DNA of 37,790 bases from a virus: IMG/VR virus record IMGVR_UViG_3300025767_000054, positions 1 to 37,790 of that record. The stretch is one strand, 5' to 3'. The notes beneath the pieces are model-generated. The model had not been told where the DNA came from and searched no databases. It saw only the letters and a program-made list of their open reading frames with translations. Position numbers and translations under genes: made by a program. Positions 7,471-37,790 of the stretch are shown in pieces (the first letter of the stretch is position 1; every line of letters begins with the position of its first letter).

Positions 7471-9141
7471 CTAAACACAGAAAAAGATTGATTTTTTTAC
7501 CTGCTCTAAATCTAGATTTCCTTTTTCAGGTAATGGTGGAAATTTTTTCTGGTTTTTTTCAGATAACATTTGCTTCATCTCCATTGCCCAATTAGCTAAA
7601 ATATCTTTACTGTAGATTTCACAAAATGCTTCTCTCAAAGCCAATGACATATTATCAGCATCAGGTGCTAGAACTCCAAAACTGTCATGGATTAAACTAA
7701 AATTATCTATTCCAAGTTCTGAACCTTTAACTACTGATAAACTTAATACTGAACTATCTAATTGATGGATTAGATTAGGACATATAGATTGTTGGGTCTT
7801 TCTTCTGTCTATTTCTTCAGTCTCAGAACTAACAGACAACTTAATAATACTATCACCCATCTTTGTTTTAACTCGCTTACTTTCTTTTTTGTAAGCTGAC
7901 ATCATAATAGGTAGACCTAATGGACTTGTCCAAGCAACAGGTAAGTTTTCTGATGCAACAAGTTTTGCTACATCTTTTAAAAACTTCATTATATCTTTAG
8001 CACCAACAATAACTTCATTGATACTTTTCCATACAATTTTAGTTAAGTAGTAAGTTGATTTAAATAAATCATCACCAAAATTATGAGGTTTATTATTTTC
8101 AACTAATTCTTTTTCAACATGGTCTTGAATGTATTGCCTACAGGAATATTGAGTAAGACTGTAAGGTAAACACATTACAGGTTTCTTACAAATCTTTCTA
8201 TCTATCCCATATTCTAACCATTGTTTTGCCATTGGGTTTGTTTCTTGTTTTAATTTATCAATTACTTTTTCTGCAACTAATCCATAGACATCATTAGGCT
8301 TATTTGATGGTACTAAGTTTGTAGCTTTACCACCTACTTCATCTCTCATCATAGCTGAGTAATGTTGTAGACCTGAGTTAGAACAATCAGAATGTATTGG
8401 TAATGTAGTTATAAACTTAGGGTCAAAATCAGTTTCAGCAAAATCTCTATATTCAATACACCATGCTAAAAATGAAAATGGTTTATCAGCTTCACACCAC
8501 CAAGTATCTTGTAATGGATTGTTGGCAGTAGAAATAATTTTATCTGCATTATCAATTACCCATTGTCTTCTAATTGGTAATTCTTCTTTATCAGTTTCAC
8601 CAAACAGACCTGCACCTGCTACAGCAAAATTATTAAATGCTTCTTCAGTTGCCATAGGTTTACCAAACTTAAATTTAATTAATGCTCTTGCGTAGTCAGC
8701 ACTTTGTGGTGAAAGCATTGGTGACTTAGGATATATCCTACCTCTAAAGTCTAATTGATAAGGATACCAAAAACCAATATCTAAAAATTTTTTAGCTTCC
8801 TCAAGAATTTGTCTTATCTGAATATATTTAGATTTAGACTTTGCTCTTTCTTTGTAAACATTAGAGGCTTCTCTTTTCCATTTTGTTTTAGCTTCTTTGT
8901 TAATAGCTATATCAAATGGTTTAGGTGGTAGAGGAATGTCCTCAGGATTAATAGGTAATTTTCCTAATTGATAACTGTTTAGAATACAAGTTTCTAAAAC
9001 ATCAAACACAGGTTTATTAATTACCCATTCAGTTTTTTGCATGATATTTACAGATTGACTTACAATCGGAAACTCATGCCATCTGTTGTTTAGTTCTTCT
9101 AAATATCTTTTATTTGTTTGTTTTATGAAATTGTAGTGCAT
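7471..9141 (-). CDS. Phage RNA polymerase, polymerase-domain subunit (556 aa)
   Basis: Corresponds to T7 RNA polymerase from about residue 290 to the end. Catalytic residues are visible: D252 in SDCSNSG (T7 D537), R315 and K319 (T7 R627, K631), Y327 (T7 Y639), and H485-D486 in LIHDSFG (T7 D812). Other family stretches: YPYQLDFRGRIYP, SAMMRDEVGG, CPNLIHQLDSSVL. T7 G640 is serine here. The N-terminal domain is encoded by a separate upstream frame overlapping by 32 bases. The ATG at 9141 has GAGGAG 7 nt upstream, as strong as the best sites in this phage, so independent initiation is likely. A sequence error joining two halves cannot be fully excluded. Confidence 0.93.
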   Translation of the reverse strand: MHYNFIKQTNKRYLEELNNRWHEFPIVSQSVNIMQKTEWVINKPVFDVLETCILNSYQLGKLPINPEDIPLPPKPFDIAINKEAKTKWKREASNVYKERAKSKSKYIQIRQILEEAKKFLDIGFWYPYQLDFRGRIYPKSPMLSPQSADYARALIKFKFGKPMATEEAFNNFAVAGAGLFGETDKEELPIRRQWVIDNADKIISTANNPLQDTWWCEADKPFSFLAWCIEYRDFAETDFDPKFITTLPIHSDCSNSGLQHYSAMMRDEVGGKATNLVPSNKPNDVYGLVAEKVIDKLKQETNPMAKQWLEYGIDRKICKKPVMCLPYSLTQYSCRQYIQDHVEKELVENNKPHNFGDDLFKSTYYLTKIVWKSINEVIVGAKDIMKFLKDVAKLVASENLPVAWTSPLGLPIMMSAYKKESKRVKTKMGDSIIKLSVSSETEEIDRRKTQQSICPNLIHQLDSSVLSLSVVKGSELGIDNFSLIHDSFGVLAPDADNMSLALREAFCEIYSKDILANWAMEMKQMLSEKNQKKFPPLPEKGNLDLEQVKKSIFFCV

Positions 9142-10090
9142 TAGCTATCTCCTCAGGTTTGTTTTCTTTGTTAAATTTCTTTCCATAATAACCACCGGTA
9201 AAAGGTGATGACCAATCTCTTGGTGGTGCTACCATTGGTAAATACTTAGGAAAAAGAAGTTCATTTTTGATATTAAAGTTTTTAATTTCTTCAATAATCT
9301 TAGGTGTTGCTTCAACATAGGTTACAGTTTTATCTTTCCTATGCTTTCTATTTTGATGTTTAATAAGACCTAGTTTTTCTAGGTAACTAATCATCTTCAC
9401 ACCTAAGTGTATCTTTTCTACATTACTCCAATCATCAAATCTGAGACCATTTCTATTCATCATGTAAGTCCAAACTCTTGATTTATATTGATACCTATTA
9501 GCGTTTTGAGGTATGTTTTTACCTGCTAATTTTCTTGAGGTTTTTAAATAGCTATCTTTATTCTGCTCTTTAAATTGAGTAATCCTAGCTTCTTGCATTA
9601 AACCAGTAGCTATTTGAATAGATAGTTTATTAATAGTAGTTTCATCAGAAATACCATCAATTACATTTTTAAGAATAATTAGACTGCAAGTATCCCATAT
9701 CTCAGGCTTGTCTTCTAAAAATACTCCATTATCAAATGCTGAAGTAGGTAGACATTGGCATATTATTTTTAAAGCTGTTTGGTGATTACCTGCCTTACCA
9801 CTACTCATAAGTCTAATATCTTCATTAATTAATTTAGATACTTCTGTGATATATTTTTGTTGAAGAACAAGACCATACAAAGTTGTACTTTCTTGTCCTT
9901 TGGCTTTGGCATCATTAACAGTTTTTTTATATCTGTTAGCACCACCTCTAAGCATATCTTCTTCATGCTCTAATTCTTTTTGGATTATTTTTAAGTGGTT
10001 TTCTTTATTGGCAAATTTACCACCTACCCCAACTCTTACTAATTCTTCTAGTTGTAGTTGGAATGGTGTCTTATGTGTTTCTGCGGACAT
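9110..10090 (-). CDS. Phage RNA polymerase, N-terminal-domain subunit (326 aa)
   Basis: Corresponds to about the first 290 residues of T7 RNA polymerase, the domain that contacts upstream promoter DNA and changes shape during elongation. Family stretches: HEEDMLRGGANRYKKTV near 42, SSGKAGNHQTALK region, SRVWTYMMNRNGLRFDDWSNVEKIHLGVKMI near 209, and MVAPPRDWSSPFTGGYYGKKF near 285, equivalent to T7 VPPKPWTGITGGGYW. After that it runs through EEIANALQF and ends with the unrelated tail HKTNK. The next cistron is in the +1 frame relative to this one. The start ATG has GGAG 11 nt upstream. Sequence GAG GAG within its own codons doubles as the ribosome site of the next cistron. Confidence 0.9.
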   Translation of the reverse strand: MSAETHKTPFQLQLEELVRVGVGGKFANKENHLKIIQKELEHEEDMLRGGANRYKKTVNDAKAKGQESTTLYGLVLQQKYITEVSKLINEDIRLMSSGKAGNHQTALKIICQCLPTSAFDNGVFLEDKPEIWDTCSLIILKNVIDGISDETTINKLSIQIATGLMQEARITQFKEQNKDSYLKTSRKLAGKNIPQNANRYQYKSRVWTYMMNRNGLRFDDWSNVEKIHLGVKMISYLEKLGLIKHQNRKHRKDKTVTYVEATPKIIEEIKNFNIKNELLFPKYLPMVAPPRDWSSPFTGGYYGKKFNKENKPEEIANALQFHKTNK

Positions 10091-10175
10091 AATAAGAACT
10101 TCTCCATAGATGTAACGAACACTAGTGAGTGTCTATTAGTGATACTTGTAGTTTGTCTACAAGACCACCACATTT

Positions 10176-10201
10176 GTGTCGTTGAGTTAAATTTAAAAAA
10201 A
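10176..10201 (-). repeat. 26-bp element, copy B, upstream of the polymerase N-cistron
   Basis: Matches copy A (7445-7470) at 23 of 26 positions, same orientation. The two copies bracket the two polymerase cistrons. The bases following on the minus strand (CACAAATGTG) can form a small stem. It lies 85 bp before the N-cistron ATG. Confidence 0.75.
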
Positions 10202-10337
10202 ATACTTATGATTAAAGAATAATAATCACAAGTGTTGTTGAAAAGAGAAGTGCAGTTCTTCCTAAGACTATTGACCTTGTCATTACCCTTGTTAACTACA
10301 CCTCTCTGTTTCAGTTTAGTAGATAAAGTAATCATAT

Positions 10338-10360
10338 CGTAGACACTTACGTAGACACTT
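10338..10360. repeat. Two tandem 11-bp repeats next to the tRNA (possible integrase arm sites)
   Basis: The plus strand carries CGTAGACACTT at 10338-10348 and again at 10350-10360, a perfect 11-bp repeat with 12-bp period, 13 bases from the tRNA 3' end. Tyrosine integrases typically bind direct repeats flanking an att core that overlaps a tRNA 3' end. That role is inferred from position. Confidence 0.6.
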
Positions 10361-10373
10361 TTTCTACTATTTT

Positions 10374-10457
10374 TGGTAGGCGAGAAAGGACTTGAACCTT
10401 CACCACTTGCGTGACCAGTTCCTAAGACTGGCGTGTCTACCATTCCACCACTCGCCC
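10374..10457 (-). tRNA. tRNA-Leu, anticodon UAG, with encoded CCA; likely attP core
   Basis: The 84-base minus-strand sequence folds as a leucine tRNA. The acceptor stem GGGCGAG/CTCGCCT has a G-U first pair, then discriminator A and CCA. There is a D-arm with GGTAGA, an anticodon stem CCAGT/ACTGG with loop CTTAGGA (UAG), a long variable arm CAC-GCAA-GTG and a T-arm GAAGG/CCTTT with TTCAAGT. It lies 36 bases downstream of the integrase stop. Integrating pelagiphages are known to use host tRNA genes as targets, so this copy probably carries or restores the attachment site. A 147-codon frame reading through it is spurious. Confidence 0.92.
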
Positions 10458-12795: not shown

Positions 12796-12960
12796 CTATT
12801 CTAGTTCGTCTTCAGGTGTTTGATATACAACTACTTCTGAGGGTTGTTCTGGTGTTAGGTTAGTTTCGGCATTATGTAATGCTTTTGCTAACACACCTTT
12901 ATCAACCTTAGAGACCATGTGACCCCAGTCTTCAAAAGTATCAAGTACTAGTATTTGCAT
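12796..12960 (-). CDS. Small acidic protein (54 aa)
   Basis: Frame beginning MQILVLDTFEDWGHMVSK and ending QTPEDELE, net acidic, no hydrophobic segment. AAAGGA lies about 9 nt before the ATG, and the gene begins only 4 bases after the stop of the RHH gene, so the pair forms an operon. The layout (small DNA-binding protein followed by small acidic protein) could be a regulator with a partner or inhibitor, but nothing in the sequence proves that. Confidence 0.68.
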   Translation of the reverse strand: MQILVLDTFEDWGHMVSKVDKGVLAKALHNAETNLTPEQPSEVVVYQTPEDELE

Positions 12961-12964
12961 AGTT

Positions 12965-13171
12965 CTATCCTTTGTTTGCTATGAGTTTCTTAAAAGAAAC
13001 CTCATGTACGTTATCAATATGAGGATAAGTTTTAGCTAATCTTTCAATTGCTATTTCAACTATCTTACTTCTACTTAGTGTAGTGTTTGGTACTATTCTT
13101 TGTCCTAAATCAGTTGCAGTTTTCCAAGTACCAATTTTAATTGCTACTGACTTATATTTATTTGAGTTCAT
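12965..13171 (-). CDS. Ribbon-helix-helix (Arc/CopG-like) regulator (68 aa)
   Basis: Predicted small dimeric DNA-binding protein: N-terminal strand KSVAIKIGTW (residues 7-16), helix KTATDLGQRI, then LSRSKIVEIAIERLAKTY as the second helix, a typical RHH pattern where strand residues contact the major groove. Length is typical of phage Arc/CopG proteins. An imperfect 15-bp palindrome at 13340-13354 and a highly structured leader lie upstream, suggesting self-control. The ribosome site (AATAGGA) is within the leader stem. Likely part of the lysis-lysogeny decision; target unknown. Confidence 0.72.
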   Translation of the reverse strand: MNSNKYKSVAIKIGTWKTATDLGQRIVPNTTLSRSKIVEIAIERLAKTYPHIDNVHEVSFKKLIANKG

Positions 13172-13174
13172 ACT

Positions 13175-13309
13175 ATTCCTATTTGTTAGTGTTAGTAGAA
13201 CCTTTAGTTCAACAGGTAGAAAGAATGATAAAACCCTGCTCTGTTATAAGAACTTAGAGTACGTTGCGTACTAAAAGCTGAACTAAAAGTTCTACAGGAC
13301 AAATAGGAT
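13175..13309 (-). ncRNA. Candidate structured leader RNA hiding the RHH gene ribosome site
   Basis: On the minus strand two long complementary pairs nest. TCCTATTTGT (near 13300-13309) pairs with ACAAATAGGA just before the RHH ATG, and TAGAACTTTTAGTTCA (13279-13294) pairs with TGAACTAAAGGTTCTA (13195-13210) over 16 bp with one G-U. The interior holds a perfect hairpin AGTACG-CAA-CGTACT (13258-13272) and an AACAG/CTGTT pair. The outer stem includes AATAGGA, the likely Shine-Dalgarno. It could be a riboregulator, or alternatively a small inverted-repeat element at DNA level. Confidence 0.6.
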
Positions 13310-13339
13310 TAATAAGTTTTAATTACAATTTTCTAAGAC

Positions 13340-13354
13340 TGCCATGACATGACA
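13340..13354. promoter_or_regulatory. Operator-like imperfect palindrome
   Basis: On the minus strand TGTCATGTCATGGCA is a 15-bp dyad with one mismatched pair. It overlaps TTGTCA, which could act as a -35 box for the RHH transcript, so binding there would repress it. Auto-repression by the RHH protein is a guess. Confidence 0.4.
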
Positions 13355-13385
13355 ACTCTACTAATCATAGCCATATCGTAGCAAC

Positions 13386-13577
13386 TCAATCTTTTAAGTA
13401 TTTTATAAGCATTTTGTAAGACTGATTATTTTTTATAATCGTAGTATTTGTTTCACTTCTTTGTATGGCTCTATTAACTACAAACTCACCTACAATTTCA
13501 GTAAGTTCATATTGAGTATAAACTTTTTCTTCTCTTTCATAAGTCTTAAGATTAATTAATAGAGTACTAAATTTCAT
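13386..13577 (-). CDS. Hypothetical protein (63 aa)
   Basis: Short soluble protein from MKFSTLLINLKTYEREEK to KMLIKYLKD, with an alternating pattern compatible with a strand-helix fold. It overlaps the 3' end of the upstream 330-aa gene by 11 bases and has no good ribosome site, so it is probably coupled. Not recognised. Confidence 0.6.
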   Translation of the reverse strand: MKFSTLLINLKTYEREEKVYTQYELTEIVGEFVVNRAIQRSETNTTIIKNNQSYKMLIKYLKD

Positions 13578-29784: not shown

Positions 29785-32122
29785 AGTAACCTTGCCAACT
29801 AGCATTTATAAAGTTTGATGGTAAATGACTATCGTTCTTAATTGTTACAGTTAGCTTGTCATTTTCAGATTGAACTGCAAAAGTATAATCACCATCTTCT
29901 AAATTAACTGTTCCAAGTAATCCTGTACCTGTAATAGTACCAGTATAAGTAGTAGTTGATGTATCTCTGCCTACAGGCTTAACTTCTGTAGTAAAATAGC
30001 CAGTATCATTAAAAGAAACATTCCAATTTCTTATCTGTAATCTACCTTCTTTAACTGAAATTCTTGAACCCTGTGTATCTGCTGTTTGAATAAACTGTTG
30101 TGAAAAAGTAAACTTAAATTCATATTTTTCACCTATAAAATAATTTTGTGAAGTTATATCACCAGTTACTACAATAGATGTTCCTGATTGTGATACGATA
30201 GAAATTTCTTGTCCTGCTTTATTAGAAGCACCACTTCTACCTACAACTTTCATTGTATTATTTATTGTATATGGAAGTGTGATAGTAGTTTGATTTGTAC
30301 CTGCGTTATAACTTTCGGTAATTTCAGAGTTATCTAATTTTCTATCTAAATGAGTTAAATAAGTTTCACCGGTATCAGTTAATGCAGGTGATATATCAAT
30401 CTTTTCTAAATAAACACCATCACTTCTTTCATTGATAATAAATAATTCATTTTCTATAAAATCTATATTTAAGATATTATCAGTAGCATCAGTACCAAAA
30501 GTCCATTTACTCCAAGCACTTTGTAATCTTCTATTTTGTGAAACATAATATTGATAAACAAATAAAGAATTCTTTTCATCAGAACTTAAAGCTACTAAAA
30601 TATTTTCAGTAGTAGCACTAGCAAGTTTAAAGACATTACTAGGAATATATTTTGGTACATTAGCTGTAATATCGTCAGCTTGTTTTATATCTGTGTCTGA
30701 GGCTATATAAAGTTCTCTTATACCTGTAAAATTTCCTTTATTAAAACCGAAATAAACATTACTACCTGCACCTACAGGTTTGATGTTTTTATCTGTTTCA
30801 AACTCTGTTGTAACATTTATTGATATGTTTTCTGTAGTTAGTGTTGCACCACCACTTAAAATAAACTGTGTTTGGTCTGAAAATAAAAGTAATTCTTCAT
30901 CAAATGAAATTGCATGACGAAGTATAGAAACTTTAGTGTGAGTACTGGCTACATCAATTGGGTCAGTATCCAATACTTGAGTAATTGTTTCAGGGAAGAA
31001 CTCAAAGAACTCACCACTTCTTGACATAATAACATTTTCATCTGCAAGAAAACCTAATCTGTTTCTATGGAAAAATATGTCATTTATTCTTCTACCTACA
31101 AATGTTGGGTTGGGTACACTTTCTTCATCACCACAAATTCTATCTCCCCATTGAGGTACATCATAAGTTGTTCCGCTTATTGTATATGAAGAACCATCTG
31201 CTTGTGTAAATCTAAAGTTTCCATCTGCTGTTCTAATTAAAACATGAGGCATAGTATCAGCATCAAGTTTAAATTCTGTATCTGGTGCTATTGTTTCTTG
31301 CCAAAGATTATCTGCTTCAATAAATTTTACATAATAATCATCAAAACCATTTGATGCGTCACCAGTAACCTGAACAATTTGATTATTAATTGCAGGTACA
31401 GGTAAATCACTAAAATTTTGAACTTTATCTTTAACTACTTGTGAAGCATCATCACCAAAACCATCTGATGCTGTAATTTCTAAAGTTCCTGAAGATTTTA
31501 CAATAGCAAAACTAGAGTTACCTATTTTTGTTTTTGTAATACCTGATGGTGAACCTATAGCTGAAAACAATCCATCTCTGATTGCTTCACTATCTGTATT
31601 TGAAGAAGTAAAATTATAAGTAGTGCCATCAATAGTTATTGAATACTTTGTACTATTTACACCTTGTAATATTGAATAAACTGCCTGTTCTACTTTAGCA
31701 CCTGACGTGGTGTTGTCCATTTGAATATTTGTGTTTTTGTTAACTATAAAAGTATAGTCAGCAACAGTCATACAAGTAAAATCCTGTTTAGGATTAGAAC
31801 TTGTTAAATAATTAGTAGCACCAGTTTGATTTACAATTGTTTTAGCATTTCCCAAAATATCATAAACAGCAATACTACCATTAGTAATAGCCACAACGTA
31901 TCTTTCATTAGCATCTCTATTAATAGTGTGAATGTAAGCGTTACCAAAAGAAGTAGCTGATAACTTTGCTACATAATCAGTATTAGGTCTTTTTTTTAAT
32001 CCTTCTACTACTGAACTAAATCCATTAATTTGTTCTGAAGCCTGTGAGTTTAATCTTAAGACTTCAGGTTGCTGAGAAACACCTTGTACTAGATTAGGAA
32101 TTGTACGACTGACTAAAGCCAT
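29759..32122 (-). CDS. Tail tubular protein B / nozzle, T7 gp12-like (787 aa)
   Basis: Forms the tail nozzle. Near-identical length to T7 gp12 (794). N-terminus MALVSRTIPNLVQGVSQQPEVLRLNSQASEQINGF with VEGLKKRPNTDYVAKL is the family signature, and FHRNRLGFLADENVIMSRSGEFFEFFPET is typical of the propeller core. It starts in a TAATG overlap with the gatekeeper gene. Confidence 0.94.
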   Translation of the reverse strand: MALVSRTIPNLVQGVSQQPEVLRLNSQASEQINGFSSVVEGLKKRPNTDYVAKLSATSFGNAYIHTINRDANERYVVAITNGSIAVYDILGNAKTIVNQTGATNYLTSSNPKQDFTCMTVADYTFIVNKNTNIQMDNTTSGAKVEQAVYSILQGVNSTKYSITIDGTTYNFTSSNTDSEAIRDGLFSAIGSPSGITKTKIGNSSFAIVKSSGTLEITASDGFGDDASQVVKDKVQNFSDLPVPAINNQIVQVTGDASNGFDDYYVKFIEADNLWQETIAPDTEFKLDADTMPHVLIRTADGNFRFTQADGSSYTISGTTYDVPQWGDRICGDEESVPNPTFVGRRINDIFFHRNRLGFLADENVIMSRSGEFFEFFPETITQVLDTDPIDVASTHTKVSILRHAISFDEELLLFSDQTQFILSGGATLTTENISINVTTEFETDKNIKPVGAGSNVYFGFNKGNFTGIRELYIASDTDIKQADDITANVPKYIPSNVFKLASATTENILVALSSDEKNSLFVYQYYVSQNRRLQSAWSKWTFGTDATDNILNIDFIENELFIINERSDGVYLEKIDISPALTDTGETYLTHLDRKLDNSEITESYNAGTNQTTITLPYTINNTMKVVGRSGASNKAGQEISIVSQSGTSIVVTGDITSQNYFIGEKYEFKFTFSQQFIQTADTQGSRISVKEGRLQIRNWNVSFNDTGYFTTEVKPVGRDTSTTTYTGTITGTGLLGTVNLEDGDYTFAVQSENDKLTVTIKNDSHLPSNFINASWQGYYVTASQRV

Positions 32123-32727
32123 TAGTACACTCCATTGTTTCTAACAATTGTGTAAGCCTGTTCAGGTGTATCAAATATGGTGTAATCACCTGTTAAACTT
32201 TCAGCTTGTTTAAGAATACTTAACGCTTTTAATTCGTCTTCTTGTGAAAATTTATGAAGTGTATTTGCACCTAAAGTTCTATCGTGAAATATTCTAGCAC
32301 TTCTAATAGTTATATATCTTTTAGCTTGTTCAGGAATTTCATTAAATGGTAATAGATAGACTACTGTAGCGTTCTCAAAGTCTTTATCAAAAGTTTCTTC
32401 ATTCTTTGCAAGATTATAAAGAAAAGTATCTCTTTGAACTATATTGTAATCACCTTTAGAATATTTTCTTGGGTCTATTTCTACTCTAACTACATTGTTA
32501 GCTAGTGGAATTTTGTTATCGGTGTTTCTTGTTAAAGTTACATTTGTATGTGTATTAAAGTGCCAACCTTGTGATTGAACTTCTCTTGCAACTTCAGATA
32601 AAACATTTTTAGCAATTGTACCATCTACAGGTAAAGAACCTGTTAATGAGTTCAATGGTGCTTCACCAATTGTACTCAATATAGTATTTACTGCTTCTAG
32701 TTCGGAAGTTCTAGTTTGTGTTGTCAT
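32122..32727 (-). CDS. Tail tubular protein A / gatekeeper, T7 gp11-like (201 aa)
   Basis: Dodecameric adaptor between portal and nozzle. Family pattern: LEAVNTILSTIGEAPLNSL, EVAREVQSQGWHFNTHTNV, then RYITIRSARIFHDRTLG. Length matches T7 gp11 (196). It is separated from the capsid gene by the only structural-operon hairpin on that side (32742-32773). Confidence 0.94.
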   Translation of the reverse strand: MTTQTRTSELEAVNTILSTIGEAPLNSLTGSLPVDGTIAKNVLSEVAREVQSQGWHFNTHTNVTLTRNTDNKIPLANNVVRVEIDPRKYSKGDYNIVQRDTFLYNLAKNEETFDKDFENATVVYLLPFNEIPEQAKRYITIRSARIFHDRTLGANTLHKFSQEDELKALSILKQAESLTGDYTIFDTPEQAYTIVRNNGVY

Positions 32728-32741
32728 AATAATTTAAACAC

Positions 32742-32773
32742 AGGCGGAAGTTGTCTGTGTTAGCCTTCCGCCT
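32742..32773 (-). terminator. Strong hairpin after the capsid gene (Tphi-like)
   Basis: AGGCGGAAG pairs perfectly with CTTCCGCCT (9 bp, GC-rich) around a 14-base loop. It lies 27 bases after the capsid stop, where T7 has terminator Tphi. The following bases GUGUUUAAAUUAUU are only moderately U-rich, so it may be a leaky terminator or an RNA-processing or stability stem. The loop AACAC can alternatively pair with GTGTT just downstream. Confidence 0.65.
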
Positions 32774-32799
32774 ATGTATTCTGTAAGTATTAAGATTGA

Positions 32800-33753
32800 T
32801 TATGCAGTCTTGATTGAGATTGCACTTTCTGGTCTTAAAATACCATGACCCATTGCCATTCTAGCAGTCATAAGAGTACCAAGTCTTCTTGGGTCGTATG
32901 TGCTTTCCATAACTAGGTCTTTTAATTTAACAGTACCAATGGCACTTGAGTGCATAACCACAGCAAAAGTATTACTGAAGTCACCATTGTAAGTGTTATT
33001 AGCACCAGAGATTGACGCTGATAAATCAGTCGCAAATACTTCAGTAGCAGTATTAGATTTAACAATTGGCACTCCACCGATTGAAAGAACTGTACCTTTA
33101 CCGAAGTCTCCATTTTCTCTAGAGAAGTCTCTGTTTACTAACTTGTCTACGTTAGCTAATTGGTAGTATTGGTCTGGTGCTACGATACATACTCTACCTG
33201 CTGTAGGTATGTTTTTCTCATCTAATTTTTGAATTGCTTCAAAAACACTTTCGATAAGAGAAGTAGCGTTTGTGTTAGCGTCAGCATCTAAAATTTCTTC
33301 ACCTGCGTTACCACCAGTAACATTAGGTGTAGTAGTTCTTGAAGCTAAGATAGCTAACGATAGAAGGTGCTTATCAACCTTATTTGCAAGAGCCTGACCC
33401 ATTTCTTTTGAGTAAATGCTTCTTACATCATAATGATTTTTAAGTTCTTCTATTTCTGCAACGAAAGCATCAGCAAGTAACATATCATCTATGTTAATTA
33501 CTTTTTCGTTGTGTTTGATAGCTTGACCAGTAATCTCATTACCTGCTGTATGGTAATTAGCCGATACAGTACCAGTAACAGGAAATTGTGCTGATTTACC
33601 ATTAGAAATAGTTCTAACAGTAGTCATTCCTAACATTTGGTTTTCTCTACCAAAAGTAGATAGAACTTCTCCTGAAAATAATTTCAAAAAAAGTGCATTT
33701 GCATCACCTGCTGAGTTTACCTGACCAATGCTTGATATTGTTGCATTAGACAT
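32800..33753 (-). CDS. Major capsid protein, T7 gp10A-like (317 aa)
   Basis: HK97-fold shell protein. Strong T7-like stretches: ALFLKLFSGEVLSTFGRENQ, RTISNGKSAQFPVTGTVSANYH, IKHNEKVINIDDMLLADAFV, NHYDVRSIYSKEMGQALA, and a C-terminal MARMAMGHGILRPESA. Length is close to T7 gp10A (344). An AAGGAG site precedes the ATG. I see no evidence of a frameshift extension such as T7 gp10B. Confidence 0.96.
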   Translation of the reverse strand: MSNATISSIGQVNSAGDANALFLKLFSGEVLSTFGRENQMLGMTTVRTISNGKSAQFPVTGTVSANYHTAGNEITGQAIKHNEKVINIDDMLLADAFVAEIEELKNHYDVRSIYSKEMGQALANKVDKHLLSLAILASRTTTPNVTGGNAGEEILDADANTNATSLIESVFEAIQKLDEKNIPTAGRVCIVAPDQYYQLANVDKLVNRDFSRENGDFGKGTVLSIGGVPIVKSNTATEVFATDLSASISGANNTYNGDFSNTFAVVMHSSAIGTVKLKDLVMESTYDPRRLGTLMTARMAMGHGILRPESAISIKTA

Positions 33754-37535: not shown

Positions 37536-37775
37536 TTATGCTGTTGGAAAGTTTATTCCACTTCCTGCTAAACCTGATGAAGTTAAAGGTATTCTTAAAC
37601 TTCCTCTGCCTCTCTTTTTTCTCACATTAGTGCTGTCTGCTTTTTCTACTGTAGAAGTGCTTTCTGCCATTTTAGGTGCATTTTTCTTAGTAGTCGCTTG
37701 AACAACAACTGGTGGAGTTGGCGGAGTTGGTTCTGGTGCAGGTGGCGGACTAGGGCTTCTGCTTGGGGGACACAT
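37536..37775 (-). CDS. T7 gp7.3-like tail assembly protein (79 aa)
   Basis: N-terminus is proline-rich (MCPPSRSPSPPPAPEPTPPT), then a Lys/Thr/Ser linker and a C-terminal RKKRGRGSLRIPLTSSGLAGSGINFP, matching the KKSLSVARSSGGGINI-like end of T7 gp7.3, which is a tail-associated protein needed for adsorption. It sits just before portal, as in T7. The same gene is repeated in part at bases 1-163 because the contig ends overlap. Match is by short C-terminal pattern and position. Confidence 0.72.
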   Translation of the reverse strand: MCPPSRSPSPPPAPEPTPPTPPVVVQATTKKNAPKMAESTSTVEKADSTNVRKKRGRGSLRIPLTSSGLAGSGINFPTA

Positions 37776-37790
37776 ATTTAGTTCTCCTGT
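37613..37790. repeat. Terminal overlap, copy 2 of 2 (partner 1-178)
   Basis: Identical to 1-178 apart from C at 37695 against T at 83, a synonymous alanine change in the gp7.3-like gene. Merging the ends joins the gp7.3-like gene to the 59-aa gene at 166-345 and thus links the replication and structural blocks in the T7 order. Confidence 0.9.

Follow-up and report, generated by a model that had tools for sequence, protein, structure and literature searches.

An undescribed structured RNA family with two invariant loops at an early-gene junction of temperate T7-like pelagiphages

The gap between two early genes of a marine phage genome contains a structured RNA element that belongs to a real, undescribed RNA family of temperate T7-like pelagiphages, one that is absent from Rfam. 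The element has a defined fold on the gene strand, occupies a single-copy syntenic position, and carries two short loop sequences that are conserved while the stems around them change. We infer that the stems act as a scaffold and that the loops are the functional part, read by a trans-acting factor in a cis role at the early-operon junction. The original prediction treated the same stretch as a leader that hides the ribosome site of the next gene, an RHH gene; this is partly supported, for the lineage of the analysed phage, and the conserved part of the element is not dedicated to that gene.

Genome, locus and fold

The window, that is the whole stretch of DNA that was analysed, is a virus record of 37,790 bases with its main genes on the minus strand. 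The phage is a temperate T7-like pelagiphage of the Fussvirus group with SAR11 as its host, and its terminase shares 89-93% identity with the terminases of HTVC041P, AP013543 (Fussvirus S30C28), Eyrgjafa and Gjalp. The record ends carry a direct repeat that is 99% identical (1-178 and 37613-37790) and that is probably the overlap of a circular assembly, so the genome would be close to complete. Two ORFs on the minus strand (7471-9141 and 9110-10090) hold the same position as two HTVC041P coding sequences, both annotated as RNA polymerase. Between these ORFs and a tRNA-Leu (10374-10457), near the presumed attachment site, the minus strand at 10150-10375 forms long hairpins and is strongly structured (z about -5 to -8), and a stable 13-bp hairpin resembling a terminator is found at 32700-32820 (minus strand) between the ORFs 32122-32727 and 32800-33753.

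The element lies past the terminase and ahead of the integrase, in the gap between the first two of the following genes:

13386..13577, minus strand: 63-aa ORF, upstream of the element
12965..13171, minus strand: 68-aa ORF with an RHH-like pattern, the first gene past the element
12796..12960, minus strand: 54-aa ORF, whose homologs are the first gene past the element in L045 and L051, with no RHH gene between

The 68-aa ORF has no Pfam or PHROG match, its best hit in a PDB sequence search is at E 0.054, and its AlphaFold model (pLDDT 55) is uninformative.

The multi-branched pairing that had been proposed for this gap is present in full, on the minus strand and thus on the gene strand. The outer stem joins arms that are 88% complementary, the long inner stem comprises 17 bp with one G-U, the 6-bp hairpin AGUACG-CAA-CGUACU and the short pairs occur as described, and AAATAGGA stands just ahead of the ATG of the 68-aa ORF. 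Folding with an energy model places the structure far beyond chance: the minus-strand RNA 13172-13312 reaches -46.5 kcal/mol (z = -7.1), dinucleotide shuffles average -23.1 +/- 3.3, and none of 200 shuffles is as stable. A sliding fold scan (120-nt windows, steps of 40) misses the 101-nt span closed by P1 and is uninformative on the element. The parts are as follows:

13195..13295, minus strand: core four-way-junction RNA element P1-P2-P2b-P3 (z = -7.2 when folded alone; covariance-model match; compensatory changes in 28 of 33 pairs)
13279..13295, minus strand: P1 5' arm GUAGAACUUUUAGUUCA, partner 13195-13211 (two-sided changes in 14 of 17 P1 pairs)
13195..13211, minus strand: P1 3' arm UGAACUAAAGGUUCUAC (fold, pair list, covariation)
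13252..13278, minus strand: P2 hairpin, stem GCUU..AGUACG/CGUACU..AAGU (two-sided changes in 9 of 10 pairs)
13263..13267, minus strand: P2 loop GCAAC, invariant (11 of 11 aligned members, including L045 and L051)
13240..13251, minus strand: P2b, small hairpin UCU-UAUAAC-AGA (fold and alignment by eye; the weakest helix)
13212..13239, minus strand: P3 hairpin GCAGG/CCUGU with an 18-nt pyrimidine-rich loop (two-sided changes in 4 of 5 pairs; 100% of cells paired)
13218..13223, minus strand: CUUUCU in the P3 loop, invariant (11 of 11 members)
13299..13314, minus strand: 5' arm of the outer stem P0, lineage-specific (duplex p = 0.002 in the window)
13171..13186, minus strand: 3' arm of P0, holding the ribosome-site-like AAATAGGA (inverted-repeat pairing, duplex test, accessibility)
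13332..13385, minus strand: tandem repeat of about 27 nt, hairpin-capable (GTTGC..ATGGC..GATTAG / GTTG..ATGGCAGTCTTAG), upstream of the element

The G and C of the P2 loop can alternatively pair to close a CAA triloop, and in L017, L032 and L006 P2b takes the tetraloop form C-GAAA-G or C-GCAA-G in the alignment by eye. Inspection by eye showed pseudoknots of GUUGC with GCAAC and of UAGAAA with UUUCUA in only part of the members, and they were not retained.

Smaller structures flank the element on both sides. The tandem repeat is common to L005, L006, L017, L032 and L125 and is missing or replaced in L037, L093 and L098, of which L037 and L093 carry another tandem repeat (about AGGACAAGTCG). 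Downstream, a short hairpin GAGGUUUCUUUUAAGAAACUC at 12983-13003 (minus strand) sits where the RHH-like ORF ends, immediately ahead of the 54-aa gene; it shows paired changes in relatives (GUGUC/GACAC, GUUCC/GGAAC) and is retained where the preceding ORF has been replaced or lost (L006, L032, L037, L093 and L125).

Distribution and covariation of the family

Homologous leaders were recovered by BLAST and by searches of the locus in L003/L004, L005 (AP013543), L006/L007 (Eyrgjafa/Gjalp), L017/L018, L032, L037, L093 and L098. A covariance model (R1) built from nine sequences, the window included, found two divergent members that were not part of it, L051 (E 2e-5) and L045 (E 1.4e-4). Both are included in a second model (R2), whose matches to them therefore do not count as independent. 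Every complete record with a credible match holds one copy, at one syntenic place with conserved ORFs on its upstream side and a variable gene slot on the other, and the window's own virus record yields no second copy. This distribution speaks against the alternative that had been offered at the outset, a small inverted-repeat element, and a multi-copy repeat element was rejected on the same count.

The records of HTVC011P, HTVC041P and HTVC025P lack the element and contain no credible match, nor was a credible member found in seven further records of T7-like marine phages, mostly pelagiphages (HTVC019P, HTVC031P, HTVC121P, Eistla, AP013544, AP013545 and CRP-114). L125 has neither the element nor the RHH gene, and since L125 and the three HTVC phages named first do without it, the element is dispensable. 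In comparison with L006, the region L125:2650-2870 is a clean joint loss of RNA element and RHH gene, with a short GAACTT repeat at its edges. Searches of Rfam release 15 with the window gave no match at gathering score among riboswitch, ribozyme, thermometer or small RNA families, and at a relaxed E-value nothing credible was returned for the window, L006, L032 or L051; a known RNA family was rejected on these grounds, and no description of the element was found in the literature.

Paired changes in aligned homologous leaders had been named as the check on the fold, and stems not preserved by such changes as what would speak against it; the stems are preserved in this manner. The alignment used here (A6) comprises 11 sequences with pairwise identity down to 41%, nearly identical subgroups among them, and its core is a four-way junction of P1 (17 pairs in the model), P2, the small P2b and P3. 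The two-sided compensatory changes that affect 28 of its 33 pairs amount to 72 cells, counts that lean towards the model because A6 was fitted to it. These paired changes also appear in a plain MAFFT alignment, for example GAACUUUUAGUUCA/UGAACUAAAGGUUC versus GAACUUUUGGUUUA/UAAACCAAAGGUUC, and RNAalifold on A6 likewise gives P1, P2 and P3. The covariation score is 0.627, compared with 0.248 for shuffled alignments, was reached by none of 500 shuffles, and stays at or below 0.166 when partners are slid. Cells with G-U pairs number 41 against five with A-C, an asymmetry which indicates that selection acts on the sense-strand RNA. All 11 members fold better than their shuffles (z -3.5 to -7.2). 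P1 of L051 and L045 is shorter and interrupted. Within these varying stems GCAAC and CUUUCU are identical throughout, the consensus of the P3 loop being ..CUUUCU(A/C).

The outer stem and candidate functions

The reading that we favour, tentatively and at a probability of roughly 0.45, is that of a cis-acting early-mRNA element whose loops are read by a putative trans factor and which sets processing or expression at the operon junction, the outer stem adding translational masking in some lineages. The element would be transcribed in the sense direction within the early mRNA of temperate T7-like pelagiphages, and P1 closes a four-way junction that presents the fixed loops GCAAC (P2) and CUUUCU(A/C) (P3). 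The putative factor that reads them would most likely be a host RNA-binding protein, and binding or cleavage at the loops would then decide the fate of the mRNA at the early-operon junction, be it processing, stability or expression of the next gene. In the window lineage, the added P0 would mask the ribosome site of the next ORF and thereby throttle its translation. Within about 1.2-1.5 kb neither loop has a conserved complement, and a nearby antisense partner of the loops was rejected for this reason.

The original prediction went further in making the masking of the ribosome site the purpose of the leader, with P0 sequestering the site as a translational switch of the RHH ORF that is opened by temperature, a ligand, a small RNA or a protein. 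In the window the predicted pairing does cover the site: the mean unpaired probability of the ribosome site is 0.31 with the upstream arm and 0.68 without it, and P0 is significant in a duplex test with shuffled arms (p = 0.002). Relatives give p = 0.006 in L003, 0.024 in L032, 0.064 in L017, 0.13 in L005 and about 0.1 in L093 and L098, whereas P0 is absent from L006, L037, L045 and L051 (p 0.39-0.89). Upstream arms swapped between phages pair about equally well in most cases. A stem that pairs with the ribosome site is thus strong in the window lineage and marginal in three relatives, the duplex and arm-swap tests indicate that the element is not conserved for P0, and masking as a conserved function was rejected. 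P0 is perhaps a window-lineage feature that close relatives share in a different register. Nor is the element always found upstream of an RHH gene. Eyrgjafa (L006) has kept it with a remnant of only about 20 codons before the 54-aa gene, in L051 and L045 it directly precedes homologs of the 54-aa gene, and in L093 a 91-aa gene that is not RHH is the first to follow it. The strongest conservation resides in the core and its loops, not in P0, and no support was found for a thermometer or ligand role. The element is therefore not dedicated to the RHH-like gene downstream of it in the window, and a switch for that gene is an unlikely account of the family.

By analogy with the early-gene junctions of T7, the element might instead be an RNase III processing site of an early polycistronic mRNA. 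The genome is T7-like, the position is early, P1 is long and near-perfect, further conserved hairpins lie nearby (12983-13003 and 13332-13385), and coaxial stacking of P1 on P2 or P3 is possible and would make a duplex of some two turns. RNase III does not depend on conserved loops, however, whereas in this element nothing is conserved more strongly than the loops, and P1 is shorter and interrupted in L051 and L045; such a site would seem improbable. Another candidate is a separate small RNA or decoy, released from the early transcript, that would use GCAAC and CUUUCU to act in trans on targets such as host RNAs or proteins. Its compact fold, its single copy, its persistence where the downstream RHH gene has been lost (L006) and the U-rich run that follows P1 in most members are consistent with this. 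Against it, a simple scan gave no convincing promoter, the window itself has only a weak U run, and a loop of the size of the junction exceeds what a good intrinsic terminator allows; an independent small RNA would likewise seem improbable. Lastly, a DNA-level inverted repeat (an operator, or a recombination or replication site) is very improbable, because the GAAC-N4/5-GTTC half-palindromes in the P1 arms of most members are lost in L005, L045, L051 and L135 while the pairing stays, the G-U excess favours RNA, and there is no second copy.

SAR11 bacteria are among the most numerous in the ocean, and early-gene control in their temperate T7-like phages is largely unknown. The literature yielded no expression data for phages of this group; a published pelagiphage transcriptome study covers HTVC022P and HTVC027P (PMC12753301). 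Eyrgjafa EXVC018P, predicted to be temperate, has been cultured on HTCC1062 (PMC8163748), which makes experimental tests practicable, and the presence in it of a covarying RNA with two invariant loops and no Rfam entry offers a concrete experimental handle.

Related loops and comparison with known systems

Loops of the CUUUC type also occur beyond the full element. L135 has a shortened form in which P1 is wholly different, P2 is missing and the pyrimidine loop with its CUUUC is kept, and in L044, L090 and L071 the element is replaced by plain hairpins, about 15 bp long, whose 21-23-nt loops have CUUUC towards the 3' side; the RHH of L044 is about 85% like that of L093. These three hairpins were picked up by searching 16 selected upstream regions for CUUUC and are for that reason a lead, not a test, although such a placement is rare in background sequence, where only one of 140 CTTTCT sites lies inside a hairpin of 10 bp or more.

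An exact pattern modelled on the P3 loop, AGGG(N1-2)TTATYCTTTCTMCCT, matches 115 stretches in viral contigs, nearly all of them hairpins of 7-10 bp. The 13 matches in bacteria and archaea, in one genome each of 84,980 species, mostly have stems of 3-4 bp and thus point to no clear host family for this loop. Perfect hairpins with the loop GUNUUAUCCUUUCUA form the L138 group and the L139/L159 group, on contigs that are distant relatives of Pontimonas phage phiPsal1 and other phages. The L138 group has four stem versions with paired changes around the fixed loop, upstream of the major capsid gene, at a locus with a short DNA match to phiPsal1, and the hairpins of the L139/L159 group mostly lie between convergent genes, after a holin-like gene. 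When such hairpins and the sequence around them were compared with named phages by BLASTN, nothing matched at the hairpin.

The P3-like loop elsewhere may reflect homology, convergence on a host factor or a shared terminator design. If either of the first two applies, its occurrence in unrelated phages points to a general host factor. A wider proposal, which we consider unlikely, is an undescribed family of phage RNAs in which a junction scaffold, or just a hairpin in some phages, displays CUUUCU (together with GCAAC in the complete element) to a bacterial factor that is widely conserved, nearly the same P3 loop having been reached independently in SAR11 phages and in contigs distantly related to actinobacterial phages. 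If true, loops of the CUUUCU type would serve phages in general as an RNA signal.

Compared with these hairpins, AGG-G(N1-2)UUAUYCUUUCU(A/C)-CCU in the L139 and L138 groups and in L293, the element has nearly the same loop in P3. The hairpins are plain, stand at operon ends without a four-way junction and belong to contigs distantly related to phages of other hosts. Among catalogued RNAs, the element is of the covarying kind that Rfam collects, yet has no match there. Antisense RNAs of the C4 / P4 CI type are likewise structured RNAs in the early leader of temperate phages with repeats nearby; the loops of the present element, unlike theirs, lack conserved complementarity to the flanks, and C4 / P4 CI is not among the Rfam matches. 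Bacteriophage T7 carries RNase III sites between its early genes, and these too are structured RNAs at early-gene junctions of a T7-like genome. The pelagiphage element differs from them in that it does not recur in this form at every junction and in that it is built as a four-way junction with invariant loops.
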